From NCBI GenBank assembly GCA_903858655.1, contig CAIOJS010000058.1:1-33379 (forward strand): 33,379 nt of DNA, written 5' to 3'. The translations under genes and the position numbers were made by a program. How positions within the stretch are numbered: the stretch's first letter is position 1; each line of letters opens with the position of its first letter. This stretch comes from an uncultured bacterium (GTDB lineage: Bacteria; Bacteroidota; Bacteroidia; Bacteroidales; CAIWKO01). Shown one piece after another: positions 21,819 to 27,543 of the stretch. The notes under the pieces are model-generated. The model was not told the DNA's origin, searched no databases, and saw only the letters and a program-made list of their open reading frames with translations.

Positions 21819-21900
21819 ATGATGAGATATGCTATGTGCAGACATGGGTAAGCATCATGTTTCCTGCAGATTTAGCAGCTTTAAGCGAATGAAACACATA

Positions 21901-21990
21901 GTGTTCCTTGTGTATTTTCTTAGTGTTCCTTGTGGTAAAGAAAAAATTTAACCACAAAGGACACAAGGGAAAGCACAAAGAGCACAAATA
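21901..21990. repeat. Imperfect inverted repeat of CACAAAGG-type motifs
   Basis: GTGTTCCTTGTGGT (21923-21936) pairs with ACCACAAAGGACAC (21951-21964) at 12 of 14 positions. Further half-copies lie outside (GTGTTCCTTGTG at 21901; AAGCACAAAGAGCAC at 21971). Simple repeats built from CACAAAG words are familiar in Bacteroidota intergenic DNA; function unknown. The rest of 21819-22030 shows nothing else. Confidence 0.7.
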
Positions 21991-22030
21991 ACAATAGAAC
22001 AATCCAACCATAGAACCATTCAGAATGCCG

Positions 22031-22058
22031 GTAGGGGCAGAAAATTTTCTGCCCCTAC
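22031..22058. repeat. Perfect 28-bp GTAGGGG palindrome (copy 1)
   Basis: The arm GTAGGGGCAGAAAA is followed directly by its exact reverse complement. It lies 52 bp beyond the stop of the minus-strand gene at 22111. The same design recurs at 26173-26200, so this is a dispersed REP-like palindrome. No T tract follows on either strand, so it is not a classical terminator. Confidence 0.9.
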
Positions 22059-22110
22059 GGTGTAAGCTTTTTCCACAATTTTCCTTAACGGAAATCCCAC
22101 AAAATCCTCT

Positions 22111-22725
22111 TTATAAAATCTTAAATTTAAAGGGTCCTCTCGGTCCCAATTCTTCTTCCGAAGAAACCGTATAATAGCGTAGCCACATATAGGTGTCAAC
22201 CGGAATACCCGAAATGGATTGATAATGTCTTGTACACATTGGATGACGTTGCCAACGTTGGTCGGCAGGCAAAGGCGGAATGGGATCGGCATGTGTTTCC
22301 ACTTGATAAGCAACCACCTTTTCACCTTTTTGAATGACCACTTTTGCCACCCCGCGTTGCGACGATGGCAATATTTCTATTTCCGGACGAGGTGTTCTAA
22401 CTGGAATTTTTGCCAAATCATAACCGCTAGACATCAAATTCGTTATGTCTCCATCGGCAGTAAAGTTGATGTAGATTCCATTCTTTTTCAGCATCAAATC
22501 CAACTCTTTTCTGTATTTCCGAGCCAGTGTGGTGGCTTGATGATCTCCTGCTTTCGACTTGTCTAATTGTTCTTCATACGCTTCTTTTTTGGCAGTGATA
22601 AGAGCAAGCGCAATGACCAAGGCGGGGAAGTTGTCGTTGTCGGTACATGAAAAAATGATGAAGCCAAGTTTTTCGAGAAATGTGCCTTGGGCTAACCTTG
22701 AATAATTGTATTTAATTGTGCTCAT
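22111..22725 (-). CDS. Hypothetical Bacteroidota protein, 204 aa
   Basis: No signal peptide or membrane span. The N-terminal half (residues 1-110) is helical: LEKLGFIIFSCTDNDNFPAL, an Ala/Lys-rich segment around 41-75, and NFTADGDITNLMSSGYDLAKIPV at about 87-109. From memory this resembles small Bacteroidota proteins with an N-terminal helical domain and a C-terminal fibronectin III-like part. The C-terminal half here (115-204) has beta-rich segments (KVVIQKGEKVVAYQVETH, SGIPVDTYMWLRYYTVS) compatible with a degenerate FnIII domain. The function is unknown. It appears monocistronic. Confidence 0.75.
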   Translation of the reverse strand: MSTIKYNYSRLAQGTFLEKLGFIIFSCTDNDNFPALVIALALITAKKEAYEEQLDKSKAGDHQATTLARKYRKELDLMLKKNGIYINFTADGDITNLMSSGYDLAKIPVRTPRPEIEILPSSQRGVAKVVIQKGEKVVAYQVETHADPIPPLPADQRWQRHPMCTRHYQSISGIPVDTYMWLRYYTVSSEEELGPRGPFKFKIL

Positions 22726-22855
22726 GATAATTAGGATTTTTGGTTAAACATTTATTTAATTTTATCGATAATTTCATTTTGCGTATAAAATCACAGTAAT
22801 CGCCACTAATTTGATTCATTATGAGCCTGTTCCATTTTGTATAGCAATTCTTCCT

Positions 22856-23148
22856 CTAATTATCTCTACATAGCCTCTAAGTATCTCTACAAAGGAGCTA
22901 AGTATCTCTACAAAGGAGCTAAGTATCTCTACATAGCCTCTAAGTATCTCTACATAACTTCTAAGTATCTTTACACAGCCTCGATGTCTCTCTACACAGC
23001 TTCTAAGTATCTCTACAAAGCCCTGACGTATCTCTTCAAAGCTTCTAAATAACTCTTCACAGCCTCGATGTACCTCTTCACAGCTTCTAAGTATCTCTAC
23101 ACAGCCTTTAAGTATCTCTATTAATCTCTAAGTCGGCTCGACAAAGCC
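22856..23148. repeat. Tandem array A2: ~14 units, 21-bp period
   Basis: Units begin CTAAGTATCTCTACA and end in AGCCT, AGCTT or AGGAG. The three units at 22877-22939 are the best conserved. Units from 23024 onward decay (TGACGTATCTCTTCA, CTAAATAACTCTTCA), and one is 20 bp. One plus-strand frame happens to read a KYLYxAS heptad, but it is broken by a TAA at about 23050. The array lies between the start of the 22725 gene and the 3' end of the LytTR gene. No further structure is seen in 22726-22855 or 23149-23339. Confidence 0.95.
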
Positions 23149-23339
23149 AAATCTGTCGTATCCTTTACATATTGTTTGGAAATGCCGCAGAGATTTTAAG
23201 TGTTTTTATACGGTTTTCAAAGAACAAAAATTTTGTATTCATGTCATAATTAGATCAAATATTTTTTCTCATTTTGACACTGACAGGGGTATTCGAGAAC
23301 TTTCCTCGGAATTGCCGAAAACAAATTCCTTTTAATTTC

Positions 23340-23813
23340 TTAGCAAATAATCAACCTGTCAAACAAATAAAAAACAAAGTTACTACACCCTAGGCTCAAA
23401 ACAATGATAATATTCATAAGTGGGACACGCTTTCTCTTCATTCTGCGCTTATATTTGGCAAACTCCTTCAGAAAAGCGGTGAATTTCAATACGCTACGTT
23501 TGCTCACAGGAATTTCTACATTATTTTTAAGTTTGACAATAATATTGCGTTTTTTGTGCCTATAACGCTTCTTAAAATTCATATTAACGATGTAGGAACC
23601 GCCGCAACGGAAAAAGCATATTGGGTTGAGCCGTTCCTGCGCATATTTGAGGCAAACGCAAAAAGTCCGCTGCGGAAGGTTTATGAAATGAATATCTATA
23701 GAATGTCCATCGGCTTCTATATAGGCAATGTCATCGGGGTTAACAGTTTTTCTGCCATTAGCACTCGGGAATGAAATGATTCCGAAGTCGTCAGTTTCGG
23801 TTTTTTGTTTCAT
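23340..23813 (-). CDS. LytTR-domain DNA-binding regulator with C-terminal membrane segment
   Basis: A 157-aa protein. Residues about 18-115 form a LytTR DNA-binding domain: DDIAYIEADGHSIDIHF, then QERLNPICFFRCGGSYIVNM, then KKRNIIVKLKNNVEIPVSKRSVLKF. There is no receiver or histidine-kinase domain. A strongly basic linker (KYKRRMKRKR, about 120-129) is followed by a hydrophobic helix (about 131-152), so the protein may tether DNA to the membrane. This is unlike canonical AlgR/LytR response regulators. It is transcribed divergently, 181 bp from the lipoprotein/outer-membrane operon, a natural candidate target. Confidence 0.85.
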   Translation of the reverse strand: MKQKTETDDFGIISFPSANGRKTVNPDDIAYIEADGHSIDIHFINLPQRTFCVCLKYAQERLNPICFFRCGGSYIVNMNFKKRYRHKKRNIIVKLKNNVEIPVSKRSVLKFTAFLKEFAKYKRRMKRKRVPLMNIIIVLSLGCSNFVFYLFDRLIIC

Positions 23814-23886
23814 AATGCAATAAAAATTATTTACGGGTTAAACTTTATTTATGCAAAATTAAAAAAGATATTTGAGAAATAAGTTG

Positions 23887-23894
23887 TACCTTTG
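23887..23894 (+). promoter_or_regulatory. -7 box of the lipoprotein/beta-barrel operon
   Basis: TACCTTTG fits TAnnTTTG and lies 100 bp before the first ATG. The -33 element is not obvious. LytTR binding sites (paired short repeats) were looked for in 23814-23994, but none could be assigned with confidence. Confidence 0.6.
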
Positions 23895-23994
23895 AAAAAT
23901 ATTTTGATCCGAGATTAGCTATAGATTTGAATATTCAAAGAATCGTTTAAAACAGACAATAAAAAATCAGTATCCATCAAAAAATCAATATTAG

Positions 23995-24375
23995 ATGAAA
24001 ACAAAACTCATACTTTTGATACTGTGCTTTTTCATGTTCGGATGCAAAAAGAATCCCTTTGACTATCGTACTAAATATCTAGGCGATTATATTTTTGTTG
24101 TGCATAATTCATCTTGGAATCCGACTAATGGGCAATTTGATACAACTTATACCGTTGACGGAAATGTTGATTATGTTTCGGACAAAAATTCAGTTCTAAT
24201 TTCCTCTCCAACTTTTTCTTTACAGGCAACTGTTTATGAAGATGGGACTTTAGAAGGATACTGGAATAATAATGGCGAAGGAGAATTTGAATCAACAAAA
24301 AAAATTAAATATCATTGCGGGTATTATTGGCCTGGTGGTCAAAGCAATTCTTATATAACAGGAGAAAAGAAATGA
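23995..24375 (+). CDS. Small lipoprotein, paralogue 1 (126 aa)
   Basis: The N-terminal hydrophobic helix ends in MFGC, with Cys17 as lipidation site, followed by KKNPFDYRTKYLGDYIFVVH. The mature part is about 110 aa and looks beta-rich (TTYTVDGNVDYVSDKNSVLI, ATVYEDGTLEGYW). No family is recognised; such layouts are typical of small Bacteroidota lipocalin-like or META-like lipoproteins. Its TGA overlaps the ATG of paralogue 2 (ATGA), so the genes are translationally coupled. Confidence 0.82.
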   Translation: MKTKLILLILCFFMFGCKKNPFDYRTKYLGDYIFVVHNSSWNPTNGQFDTTYTVDGNVDYVSDKNSVLISSPTFSLQATVYEDGTLEGYWNNNGEGEFESTKKIKYHCGYYWPGGQSNSYITGEKK

Positions 24376-24758
24376 GAAAACTAAAATTTATTTTATCACT
24401 TATGCTAATTCCCTTAATAAATTGCGGATGCAAAAAGAATCCTTTTGATTATCGTACTAAATATTTGGGCAATTACGTCTTTGTTGTTCATAGCTCTTCT
24501 TATAATCCGACTGACGGTGCAATTGATACCACCTATACCCTTGATGGAAAAATTGATTATGGTTCAGATAAAAATACCATATTAATTACTTCTAATGGCA
24601 TAACAGGAGGGGATTATAAGATTTATGAAGATGGCACAGTGGAAACAGAACATTGTTCGGGAGAATTCGCAACCTCCGACAAACTTTTATATTCTTGCTA
24701 TATACACGTAAGTATGATGGCAAAGTGGTCGTGGGACGTTGTAGGAGAAAAGAAATGA
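24372..24758 (+). CDS. Small lipoprotein, paralogue 2 (128 aa)
   Basis: The start at 24372 is chosen because it begins a signal sequence (MRKLKFILSLMLIPLINCGC), overlaps the preceding stop as ATGA and follows a GGAGAAAAG purine stretch; a longer reading upstream would lie inside paralogue 1. Mature residues align with paralogue 1: CKKNPFDYRTKYLGNYVFVVH, a TTYTLDGKIDYGSDKNTILI block and KIYEDGT, with the same C-terminus GEKK. This is clearly a tandem duplication. Function unknown, outer-membrane or periplasmic by lipidation. Confidence 0.82.
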   Translation: MRKLKFILSLMLIPLINCGCKKNPFDYRTKYLGNYVFVVHSSSYNPTDGAIDTTYTLDGKIDYGSDKNTILITSNGITGGDYKIYEDGTVETEHCSGEFATSDKLLYSCYIHVSMMAKWSWDVVGEKK

Positions 24759-25504
24759 GAAAACTATTCCTTATAATGAGTATAATTCTTGCAACATACG
24801 TTTCGTATGGTCAAGATACTATTAGAGCTAAAGCTCATCATTCGAAATATCAATTCTCGTTTTTGGTTGGAGGCTTTTATAAAAGTTTTTTTGGGAATAG
24901 GTATATAAAACCTACCACTTTTGAATTGGGAGACTCGTTTGAACAACATCAATATGAGAGGTCAATACAAACACCTACAGGTGGATTCAAATTCGGGGCT
25001 TTAGTAGATATAAGAATGGCAAAACATTGGTACTTTACAACAGGAATGCTGTTTTGCTACCGTAAGGATATTTTTGAATACAATAGTGATACAGTTAAAA
25101 AATACAATAACATTAGTTACACTCGAAATATTCATAATGTACTTACGTATAATTATGCCTACACTAATTTAGAAATCCCTTTGATGATATTGTTAAAATT
25201 GAAGAGGATAAGCCTATACGTGGGAGCCAATATCCCTATATTGAGCTATAAAGTAGCAAATTATTCGTATATTATTCGACAATCTTACTACCCCATTTCT
25301 TATGGCACTTCTGAAAAAACAGTCAAAAACCTTGAAGTCCCCTTTAAGATTTATCCTACTTGGCTCCTGAGTTATTCTTTTACATTACCGAAACACACCC
25401 TTGAACCATTTATTGGGATGGATTTTGGAGCAAGAAAATCATTTTTTATACAAGGAGGTTTGATTTTTACGATGAACGCAAAACAATGCACTAAAACCAT
25501 TTAA
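24755..25504 (+). CDS. Outer-membrane beta-barrel protein (249 aa)
   Basis: The start at 24755 is set by the signal peptide (MRKLFLIMSIILATYVSYGQ) and the ATGA overlap with paralogue 2. Alternating polar/aromatic strands (YQFSFLVGGFYKSFF, GFKFGALVDIRMAKHWYFTTGMLFCYRK, YAYTNLEIPLMILLKLKRISLYVGANIPIL, PFIGMDFGARKSFFIQGGLIF) match the Bacteroidota outer-membrane beta-barrel families (PorT/OMP_b-brl type). Third gene of the operon, so it probably works with the two lipoproteins. The last 4 bases overlap the convergent lipoate ligase gene. Confidence 0.82.
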   Translation: MRKLFLIMSIILATYVSYGQDTIRAKAHHSKYQFSFLVGGFYKSFFGNRYIKPTTFELGDSFEQHQYERSIQTPTGGFKFGALVDIRMAKHWYFTTGMLFCYRKDIFEYNSDTVKKYNNISYTRNIHNVLTYNYAYTNLEIPLMILLKLKRISLYVGANIPILSYKVANYSYIIRQSYYPISYGTSEKTVKNLEVPFKIYPTWLLSYSFTLPKHTLEPFIGMDFGARKSFFIQGGLIFTMNAKQCTKTI

Positions 25505-26142
25505 CCATTCAACAATTCAGCCATCGCTCCATTGTTCTCATGAGCAAACCGCTCCCGAATGTCAGCCATTAGATGCTCTATATGGATCTCATACCCCTCC
25601 GCATGTAGCGAAGTGACGAATTCTGCATGGGAGCGTCCTTGGCGGTAATCGGGTTCTTTGGCGGGATGGCGTATGTATTTTGCAATAATGCTGACATCTT
25701 CCCCCATGTTCAACACGGCATGATACAAAACGCGCTTGGGTTTGCGATAAATGGACGACCCCAATATCTTCTTTTCGCCTATGGCAATATCCGAGATGCC
25801 TTTTTGGAGGAGGTTTTTGACGCCATGCTGTGCTAAGACAGCCATGATACTTTCGTTAATCGTATGGAAGTATGCGCGCGGGTTTTTCAACGTCTCTGTT
25901 GCGAACGAAACGGCAATGACGATAGTGTTGGGCGTTAGGATGACCGTTTCGCCTCCCGAAGGACGTTTCATCACCGTGATTTGATCCGCCAAAACGGCAT
26001 TCATATCCAAGGAAGTCTCCGCTTTGTTGCTTTGCCCCAACACCAGATAGGTTCTATCGGGCTGCCACACATAGGCAGAAACCGCCACCGCGGAATCCAT
26101 GATATCCAAATCGGGGAGGGTGTATTTTTGAATGTTGATCAT
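25501..26142 (-). CDS. lplA: Lipoate-protein ligase A-type enzyme
   Basis: A 213-aa BPL/LplA catalytic domain. The family attaches lipoate (via lipoyl-AMP) or transfers octanoate to the lysine of lipoyl domains. Visible motifs are VMKRPSGGETVIL (58-69), in place of the usual RRxSGGGTV with the third Gly changed to Glu, and SDIAIGEKKILGSSIYRK, with Lys125 in the position of the invariant catalytic lysine. LYHAVLNMGEDV and KYIRHPAKEPDYRQGRSHAEFVTSL follow. The C-terminal accessory domain of E. coli LplA is absent, so the form is short. It is the last gene of the dehydrogenase operon, 54 nt after lpdA, and its target is very likely Lys43 of the E2 encoded here. An octanoyl- or amido-transferase role (LipM/LipL-like) remains possible. 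Confidence 0.82.
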   Translation of the reverse strand: MINIQKYTLPDLDIMDSAVAVSAYVWQPDRTYLVLGQSNKAETSLDMNAVLADQITVMKRPSGGETVILTPNTIVIAVSFATETLKNPRAYFHTINESIMAVLAQHGVKNLLQKGISDIAIGEKKILGSSIYRKPKRVLYHAVLNMGEDVSIIAKYIRHPAKEPDYRQGRSHAEFVTSLHAEGYEIHIEHLMADIRERFAHENNGAMAELLNG

Positions 26143-26172
26143 TCTATGTAATTAATTGGGGATAAATTTGGC

Positions 26173-26200
26173 GTAGGGGTAATTCATGAATTACCCCTAC
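26173..26200. repeat. Perfect 28-bp GTAGGGG palindrome (copy 2), overlapping lpdA stop
   Basis: The arm GTAGGGGTAATTCA is followed by its exact reverse complement. It has the same architecture and length as 22031-22058, with a shared outer GTAGGGG/CCCCTAC. The lpdA stop codon (TAG on minus, 26199-26197) lies inside its edge, so the end of lpdA is formed by the element. It sits between lpdA and lplA in one transcript, where it would fold as an RNA hairpin. Confidence 0.9.
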
Positions 26201-27543
26201 TTATGTATCGCCCTATCCACCGCTTCAAATCCCGCTTCCATAAATATCTCGGAAACGGTAGGATGGGCATGTATGGTTTGCGAAATATCAAAGATGGTGC
26301 CTTCTATCTGCATATAGGCAGCGGCTTCGGCTATCATATCGGTGGCATGGTCGGCAATGATTTGCACACCGAGCACCTGCCCGAATTTCTTTTCGGAGAA
26401 CATACGTATCAAACCTTCGGTATGCCCTTCGGTCATGGCTTTTGCATTCACAGAAAGGGGAAACTCGCTCAGTTTATAGTCCACGCCTGATGCTTGCAGG
26501 TCTTGTTCGGTCTGACCAATCTGCGCCATTTCGGGGAAAGTATAAATGTTGAGCGGATAATTCTTTATGTTGAAATCCGTTTTAATCCCTTTTATCTTAT
26601 TGATAAGCCAGATGCCTTGTGCCGAAGCCACATGAGCCAGATAGCTGCGTCCGTTCACATCACCGATGGCATAGATTCCCGATGCAGAGGTTTGCAGATT
26701 ATCGTCGGTCTGAATATAGCCGTTCTCATCCAACGCAATCTTCACATCGCTTGGGGGCAAAATGGCTTTGCGGAAGTTGCAGTTAAGAACCTTGTCGCAT
26801 TGCAGCATGGTGTCGCCAATATACAGAAGCCCGTCATCCACCTTGTCAATAGTATCGGCATACACCACGGGAATGCCCAATTCGTTGAATTTTTTAATGA
26901 CATATTTAGATAAATAGCTGTCGGCGCCCGGTATCAGATTCTCGTCAGGGGTAATCAGGCTGACATTCTTTTCTATCATGTGTAGAAACTGAACCATTTC
27001 GATGGCTACCGCTCCTTTGCCAAACACCACGATGTTTTTGGGAAGTTCCGGCAGGTCGAATAGTTTCTCCAATTGCACCACATGGCGCGCATCAATAGGT
27101 GCTTCCAAAGGAGCAGGATAGGACCCCGTGGCGATGATGATGTGTTCACATTCCAGGCTGCGATTCTCAACGGTAATGGTGTTGCCCTCGTGAATCACTG
27201 CCTCGCCCATGATAACATCCACGCCATTCTTTTTCAACAAAAAGTCAACGCCGCCCGAAAGCTTTTTGACTATGCCTGTAGAGCGTTTCTTGGCTTTATC
27301 CCAATTGAACCGTAGTTGGTTCTTGTCAATGCCATCCACGCCAAATTCGGAAGCGCTGATGACGCGAGCAAACATCTTGCCGCTTTCTATCATGGCTTTA
27401 GTAGGGATGCAACCCCAGTTGAGGCACATGCCGCCAATATATTTCTTCTCAATCAGGGCTGTTTTCAGTCCCACTTGTCCGGCACGGATAGCAGCCACAT
27501 AACCTGCGGGTCCGGCACCAATTATTACGATATCGTATTTCAT
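26197..27543 (-). CDS. lpdA: Dihydrolipoyl dehydrogenase (E3)
   Basis: A 448-aa flavoprotein that reoxidises dihydrolipoyl-E2 with NAD+. An N-terminal FAD Rossmann motif, GAGPAGYVAA (9-18), precedes the redox disulfide CLNWGC (Cys40, Cys45) followed by IPTKA. The NAD-binding motif is at about 175-181, FGKGAVAIE, with Ala for the last Gly, a tolerated variant. The second FAD motif is GIYAIGDVNGRS. The active-site HAHP (His427 with Glu432) lies in the dimerisation domain. Length is slightly shorter than the usual 460-475 aa. Gene order E2-E3 has a 15-nt gap. Its stop codon lies in the palindrome at 26173-26200. Confidence 0.95.
   Translation of the reverse strand: MKYDIVIIGAGPAGYVAAIRAGQVGLKTALIEKKYIGGMCLNWGCIPTKAMIESGKMFARVISASEFGVDGIDKNQLRFNWDKAKKRSTGIVKKLSGGVDFLLKKNGVDVIMGEAVIHEGNTITVENRSLECEHIIIATGSYPAPLEAPIDARHVVQLEKLFDLPELPKNIVVFGKGAVAIEMVQFLHMIEKNVSLITPDENLIPGADSYLSKYVIKKFNELGIPVVYADTIDKVDDGLLYIGDTMLQCDKVLNCNFRKAILPPSDVKIALDENGYIQTDDNLQTSASGIYAIGDVNGRSYLAHVASAQGIWLINKIKGIKTDFNIKNYPLNIYTFPEMAQIGQTEQDLQASGVDYKLSEFPLSVNAKAMTEGHTEGLIRMFSEKKFGQVLGVQIIADHATDMIAEAAAYMQIEGTIFDISQTIHAHPTVSEIFMEAGFEAVDRAIHK

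Follow-up and report, generated by a model that had tools for sequence, protein, structure and literature searches.

According to the available part of PMC6006769, subclass 2.4 of the TnpA_REP proteins (REP-associated tyrosine transposases [RAYTs]) has double-foot repetitive extragenic palindromes (REPs) and, in addition, in-frame REPs inside its genes, and such double-foot REPs are abundant in Cyanobacteria and Bacteroidetes. The accessible text of PMC8266576 describes TnpA_REP proteins of groups 2 and 3 as binding single-stranded REP hairpins, using GTAG, and cutting at a nearby CT (or CA); its biochemistry concerns groups 2 and 3, and that text gives none for group 4 RAYTs. In the accessible part of PMC3733652, GTAG repeats are reported from Proteobacteria, Cyanobacteria, Chloroflexi, and the PVC group, and CGTC repeats from Bacteroidetes. 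Here, we analyzed a 33,379-nucleotide stretch of DNA from an uncultured bacterium of the order Bacteroidales (contig CAIOJS010000058.1 of assembly GCA_903858655.1; the whole stretch is hereafter called the window), in which two perfect 28-bp palindromes are very probably double-foot REPs of a RAYT subclass 2.4 (group 4) system. The kind of REP is already known, here displayed with unusual clarity; what is new is these members and a quantified match between RAYTs and REPs.

Palindrome 1 (GTAGGGGCAGAAAATTTTCTGCCCCTAC, positions 22031-22058) and palindrome 2 (GTAGGGGTAATTCATGAATTACCCCTAC, positions 26173-26200), referred to here as families 1 and 2, respectively, match GTAGGGG(N14)CCCCTAC with zero mismatches, have the ends GTAGGGG/CCCCTAC in common, and differ in their centers. 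All of these properties, including the positions and the perfect symmetry, had been reported by the first-pass annotation of this DNA and were confirmed in the sequence. Apart from these two, the window contains no perfect 28-bp palindrome and no other gap-free perfect palindrome with an arm of at least 9. The gapped pattern by itself is weak, as at three mismatches it gave a mean of 0.49 matches in shuffled sequences, with two matches reached in 8 of 100 shuffles; the improbable part is the perfect symmetry, and the chance of a single perfect 28-bp palindrome in the window is ~1e-4 by simple arithmetic (33379/4^14). Both palindromes are long and start with GTAG and end with CTAC, in agreement with the feet of double-foot REPs (5' GT[AG]G, 3' C[TC]AC), and each presents a 5' GTAG on either strand. 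A canonical one-footed GTAG REP, in which GTAG is unpaired and confined to a single end, does not describe them, since their GTAG pairs with CTAC.

The genome from which the window derives (G000; 4.2 Mb, 558 contigs, 81% complete) contains GTAGGGG..CCCCTAC at 9 places, against 1 for a control in which the pattern was read backwards, and the wider pattern GTAGRGR..YCYCTAC at 11 places; draft assemblies constrain this and every other count given here, and certain contigs end at palindromes. Palindrome 1 is found with 28/28 identity at four other places of this genome, one of which lies within a RAYT open reading frame (ORF) on contig C340. Its motif, GTAGGGGCAGAARATYTTCTGCCCCTAC, occurs in 2 of the 393 genomes of the order, namely in that of the window (5 copies) and in that of a congener, G001 (7 copies). 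The family 2 pattern GGGNNATTCRYGAATNNCCC has just 4 places in the window's genome, all of them loose matches (palindrome 2, one on C176, and two within a single RAYT ORF on C359), and 0 in congeners G001-G003. Half of the dispersed copies inspected in the window's genome and G001 (9 of 18) are imperfect, and sharing between the two genomes marks two sites (C68/C40 and C295/C68 of G001) as older than the divergence of these genomes. One pattern match, on C157 (GTAGGGACAGATACCCACCTGTCCCTAC), was not counted as a REP, being imperfect and located in a stretch that is 97.6% conserved in G001. A literature text search with the DNA strings yielded nothing related among the matches listed.

The window's genome contains three RAYT ORFs, each with a variable middle, which were located on contigs C340, C359, and C326 by means of the NF047646 profile (REP_Tyr_transpos). 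They match this profile at 40-65 bits, below its curated cut-off of 80, and a profile comparison with solved structures at E<=0.01 gave a single match, 4er8 (TnpA_REP); it is on these two results that their link to RAYTs is based. All three ORFs contain NHVH and YI..NP, and the tryptophan before the tyrosine (Tyr) motif occurs as WQ in C340 and C359 and as WH in C326. The motifs expected of subclass 2.4 (NH[IFV]H, WQ, YIxNNP, and a variable insert) are all present in C359 (NHVH, WQ, and YIINNP), with partial departures in C340 (YIIHNP) and C326 (WH and YIEHNP).

These ORFs carry REPs themselves. The C340 ORF, which is open and has its motifs present, holds palindrome 1 exactly (28/28) and in frame, where it is read as VGAENFLPLQ, and decayed half-arms (GTAGGGGCAAATGATGG and relatives) lie upstream of it. 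The C359 ORF holds GTAGGGGCGATTCATGAATCGCCCC, which shares GTAGGGG and the center ATTCATGAAT with palindrome 2 and differs from it by two positions in each arm as well as in the 3' foot. The C326 ORF holds GTAGAGACGCCCAATTTGGGCGTCTCTAC along with two truncated repeats of the same sequence. A cognate REP within the transposase gene is thus present for family 1 by identity (C340) and for family 2 by similarity (C359), and, judged from these sequences, the two families appear to belong to two resident RAYTs, C340 and C359. The first-pass annotation had attributed the symmetric difference between the palindromes to compensating changes in both arms of one element; instead, the observations agree with two REP families that each have a matching REP in a RAYT of their own, and the difference is best read as that between two families with two masters. 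Constant-length perfect palindromes with different centers are in this way explained without site-by-site compensation. Its broader suggestion, namely that these are REP-type elements mobilized by a RAYT and that further copies and a RAYT gene should be sought in the genome, has fared well, in that the genome has yielded further copies along with three RAYT ORFs belonging to the fitting subclass, and mobilization itself is probable.

The search for these ORFs also revealed a pitfall. Pfam Y1_Tnp (PF01797), when used as a RAYT finder, reached IS200-like enzymes (five loci in the window's genome, of which three were classed, all as IS200-like) and temporarily suggested that there was no cognate RAYT, an outcome corrected with the NF047646 profile and a RAYT query. 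At 1e-3, no Pfam family matches the C340 RAYT, probably because its hypervariable REP-bearing insert splits the domain. As this search shows, Pfam Y1_Tnp overlooks REP-bearing RAYTs.

With regard to the relatives, the wider pattern was found in 37 of 59 genomes (the window's own included) at 1 to 68 copies, summing to 298 compared with 145 for the control pattern, and in genomes with many copies the length is near constant and the centers group into families among the matches listed. RAYT homologues are present in 14 of the 15 genomes with at least 6 pattern matches and in 12 of the remaining 44 (p=8e-6; p=1.7e-5 without the window's genome), and no such link was seen for the control pattern (p=0.44). 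Among 45 RAYT ORFs of relatives with both motifs, a sample in which several loci had been selected for a nearby palindrome, 23 contain an internal double-foot palindrome and 25 have one internally or near. When ORFs 140 aa or longer in the loci searched were compared, GTAG/GTGG-footed palindromes were present in 19 of the 45 that encode RAYTs and in 10 of the 256 remaining ones (the latter including overlapping frames). In 80 loci from named genomes, the best 80 of at least 427 relatives, a double-foot palindrome is internal in 25 (one of them, in L349, probably by chance) and internal or near in 30, against 3 and 5 for control feet. The RAYT-borne REPs are 28 bp long in 40 of 43 cases and 29 bp in the other 3, and their GTAG lies in codon phase 0 in 35 and phase 1 in 8, with 0 of 43 placed so that TAG would act as an in-frame stop codon. 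In Gracilimonas (L363), REPs 27/28 identical to palindrome 2 lie beside a RAYT.

Among the named loci, one titled as a Sphingomonadales metagenome-assembled genome (L318, VHAX01000034.1) has an exact palindrome 1 in a RAYT fragment that is without the Tyr part and 61% identical to C340 over its first part, reflecting either transfer or mis-binning. In G013, double-foot REPs also occur in frame within large ORFs (L152 609-636, L153 6836-6863, and L155 2630-2657), which encode two FGE-sulfatase-domain proteins and a DNA methylase and to which VETLHATSLQ or VETTHALSLH is added. The same genome has three tandem half-units, GTAGAGACAACGCAT, that pass directly into a full palindrome (L156 480-575), as well as chimeric arms, e.g., GTAGAGACGCCCGCATGCAACGTCTCTAC.

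We then compared REP arms with RAYT phylogeny, using a tree of RAYT cores from which the REP-coded part was excluded. This tree comprises 41 of 46 rows (20 from the window's order and 21 from named genomes spanning ~ten phyla), as two rows with REP codons in the kept part and three without recognizable motifs were dropped, and the arm type (GTAGGGG or GTAGAGA) was scored in 35 of the 41. Arm type changes 2 times on the tree, compared with a mean of 11.9 and a minimum of 7 in 1000 shuffles; it follows the RAYT clade. The 20 center classes require 22 changes (shuffles: mean 31.2, minimum 26), and in a smaller order-level tree (22 rows, two still with REP codons in the kept part, and L272 left out) center classes need 9, the least possible. 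We met no statement of this arm-clade match in the accessible parts of the RAYT and REP literature, and we do not claim its absence from print. The concordance over ~ten phyla provides a direct prediction for specificity swaps.

Collectively, REP identity or similarity, co-occurrence, and the arm-clade match point to mobilization of these REPs by RAYTs. RAYT genes of subclass 2.4 often bear an in-frame copy of their own REP, located in a hypervariable segment and in most cases flanked by the HuH and Tyr motifs. We envisage that the transposase would most likely recognize the single-stranded hairpin of its own REP through the GTAG foot and a specific arm, would cut next to it, and would allow copies to be placed elsewhere, whereby 28-bp copies of the RAYT-borne REP would be dispersed, presumably in the direction from the RAYT to the dispersed site. 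The element being identical to its reverse complement, the same 5' GTAG hairpin is available on either strand. As a tentative extension, about which we have more doubt than confidence, the REP inside a group 4 RAYT gene could be the master from which the dispersed copies derive, with the RAYT core and REP arms forming a co-inherited specificity pair, the enzyme reading the paired arm that adjoins GTAG (GGGGC or AGAC) on either strand, and orthologous RAYTs exchanging the middle segment together with its REP. If true, a single exchange of this kind would suffice to create a new REP family. The RAYT loci L220 (C359 of the window's genome) and L224 (C54 of G001) are orthologues whose ends and flanks are 93-95% identical and whose middle, including the REP, is unrelated; this segment looks as if it were an exchanged cassette. 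The notion that REP exchange in G001's RAYT was the source of another dispersed family in that genome found no support, as the C54 REP is present once, within C54.

Several observations weigh against a simple RAYT link. In G001 (96% complete), where the pattern is matched 12 times and family 1 accounts for 9 of the 11 matches listed, no RAYT matching family 1 was found; the only one found, C54, carries another REP, and no second copy of that REP occurs in G001. Likewise, G004 has 7 pattern matches, including at least 1 perfect palindrome, and no RAYT by Pfam Y1_Tnp, NF047646, or the RAYT query. Conversely, G003, G020, and G022 contain RAYT homologues and 0 pattern matches, with the RAYT of G003 holding a GTAGGGT variant that is invisible to the pattern. 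The internal double foot is missing in 22 of the 45 two-motif RAYT ORFs and in 55 of the 80 named loci, the C359 REP is without a full 3' foot (CAGC instead of CTAC), and GTAG in the closed double-foot hairpin is paired with CTAC, in contrast to the free foot of canonical REPs. Finally, neither a precise empty site nor a target duplication was obtained, as the sole congener lpd orthologue is too diverged beside its stop codon.

Three other explanations were weighed against this evidence. The palindromes might be host stem-loops, i.e., terminators or 3' mRNA stabilizers, whose symmetry is kept by compensating mutations at each site and whose REP likeness is secondary. Both are at or shortly beyond gene ends, REPs are generally reported in the accessible part of PMC3733652 as lying downstream of genes and acting in RNA, and palindrome 2 is among 4 terminator-like sites of the region. 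However, that number is in line with the 3.3 expected from shuffles, and neither palindrome shows the hairpin with a subsequent T run, on the strand of the genes, that marks an intrinsic terminator: palindrome 1 was unflagged, and palindrome 2 is terminator-like on the plus strand alone, while the neighboring genes are on the minus strand. Moreover, the 28/28 copies of palindrome 1 at four other places, one in a transposase ORF, speak for dispersal rather than compensation, and G013 has such palindromes in frame within protein genes. We therefore regard host stem-loops as highly improbable; the dispersed identical copies have already refuted this explanation for the most part. Equally hard to sustain, and if anything a shade more so, is movement by another enzyme, for which the genome's own IS200-like Y1 transposases would be candidates; the five Y1_Tnp loci and the palindromes of G001 and G004 that are without a matching RAYT would accord with it, yet no GTAG-ended palindrome was found around those loci (several adjoin others, e.g., CTCCGCC..GGCGGAG), high pattern counts go together with RAYT homologues, and arm type tracks the clade of the RAYT.

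The remaining alternative, which we consider unlikely, is that both palindromes are old, immobile relics carried passively within larger dispersed repeats. A composite dispersed repeat indeed encloses palindrome 1 (21896-22071; detected by blastn among the fetched loci, L001 1366-1541) and contains AACCACAAAGGACACAAGG-like text; 71- to 168-bp stretches of it are ~80-89% shared with nine other REP-bearing loci (3 in the window's genome and 6 in G001). Many family 1 copies, including that of the window, lie in the larger repeat, so part of the spread may be passive, and the two sites shared with G001 and the imperfect half of the inspected copies also suit relics. Nevertheless, both window copies are perfect, the open C340 ORF retains its motifs and an identical REP, and family 2 is missing from three congeners. 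Double-foot REPs of a RAYT system thus remain our preferred reading. The case is useful for group 4 RAYTs, in that one small genome combines an open RAYT ORF holding the exact REP with dispersed copies identical to it, and a congener keeps REPs without a matching RAYT.

As for the genomic setting, the first-pass annotation placed both palindromes at the 3' ends of minus-strand genes, which holds with some adjustment. Palindrome 1 lies ~52 bp beyond the 3' end of a minus-strand ORF of 204 aa without a Pfam match (22111-22725), and palindrome 2 overlaps the stop codon itself of the dihydrolipoamide dehydrogenase gene lpd (26197-27543, minus strand), whose TAG is supplied by the GTAG of the REP. 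Palindrome 2 is located between two genes of the same direction, since ~30 bp downstream of it on the minus strand starts the lipoate-protein ligase gene lplA (25501-26142, minus strand; Pfam LplA-B_cat). The lpd orthologue of congener G002 (L107, 74% identity) also ends in AAG-TAG, with no palindrome there. Rfam detected a single tRNA in the window and nothing else. Five tandem arrays with 20- to 21-bp units occur in this 33-kb contig (66-361, 22853-23120, 31481-31695, 32321-32438, and 33007-33379), the second of which lies between the palindromes.

Compared with described systems, the window's REPs are most like those of subclass 2.4 in the available part of PMC6006769, with a 5' GT[AG]G, a 3' C[TC]AC, a long stem, a position in or beside genes of subclass 2.4, and an in-frame REP in the transposase gene between HuH and Y; no feature given there speaks against membership. 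They resemble the canonical GTAG REPs and REPINs of E. coli, Pseudomonas, and Stenotrophomonas, as far as described in the accessible parts of PMC3733652 and PMC8266576, in their GTAG tag, stem-loop, RAYT partner, and location near gene ends. They are unlike them in that the canonical elements carry GTAG unpaired, at a single end, and have an inactive inverse, whereas in the window GTAG pairs with CTAC and the strands are equivalent. The atypical palindromes of subclass 2.6 from Bacteroidetes, as presented in the same part of PMC6006769, similarly flank Y1-type genes and are dispersed in the genome; unlike the window's REPs, they are without a GT[AG]G foot, and the Tyr motif of that subclass is YIH[QN]NP. 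To the subclass 2.4 picture published in that part, our analysis adds a dispersed copy identical to the RAYT-borne REP, a tight 28-bp length, and the arm-clade match.

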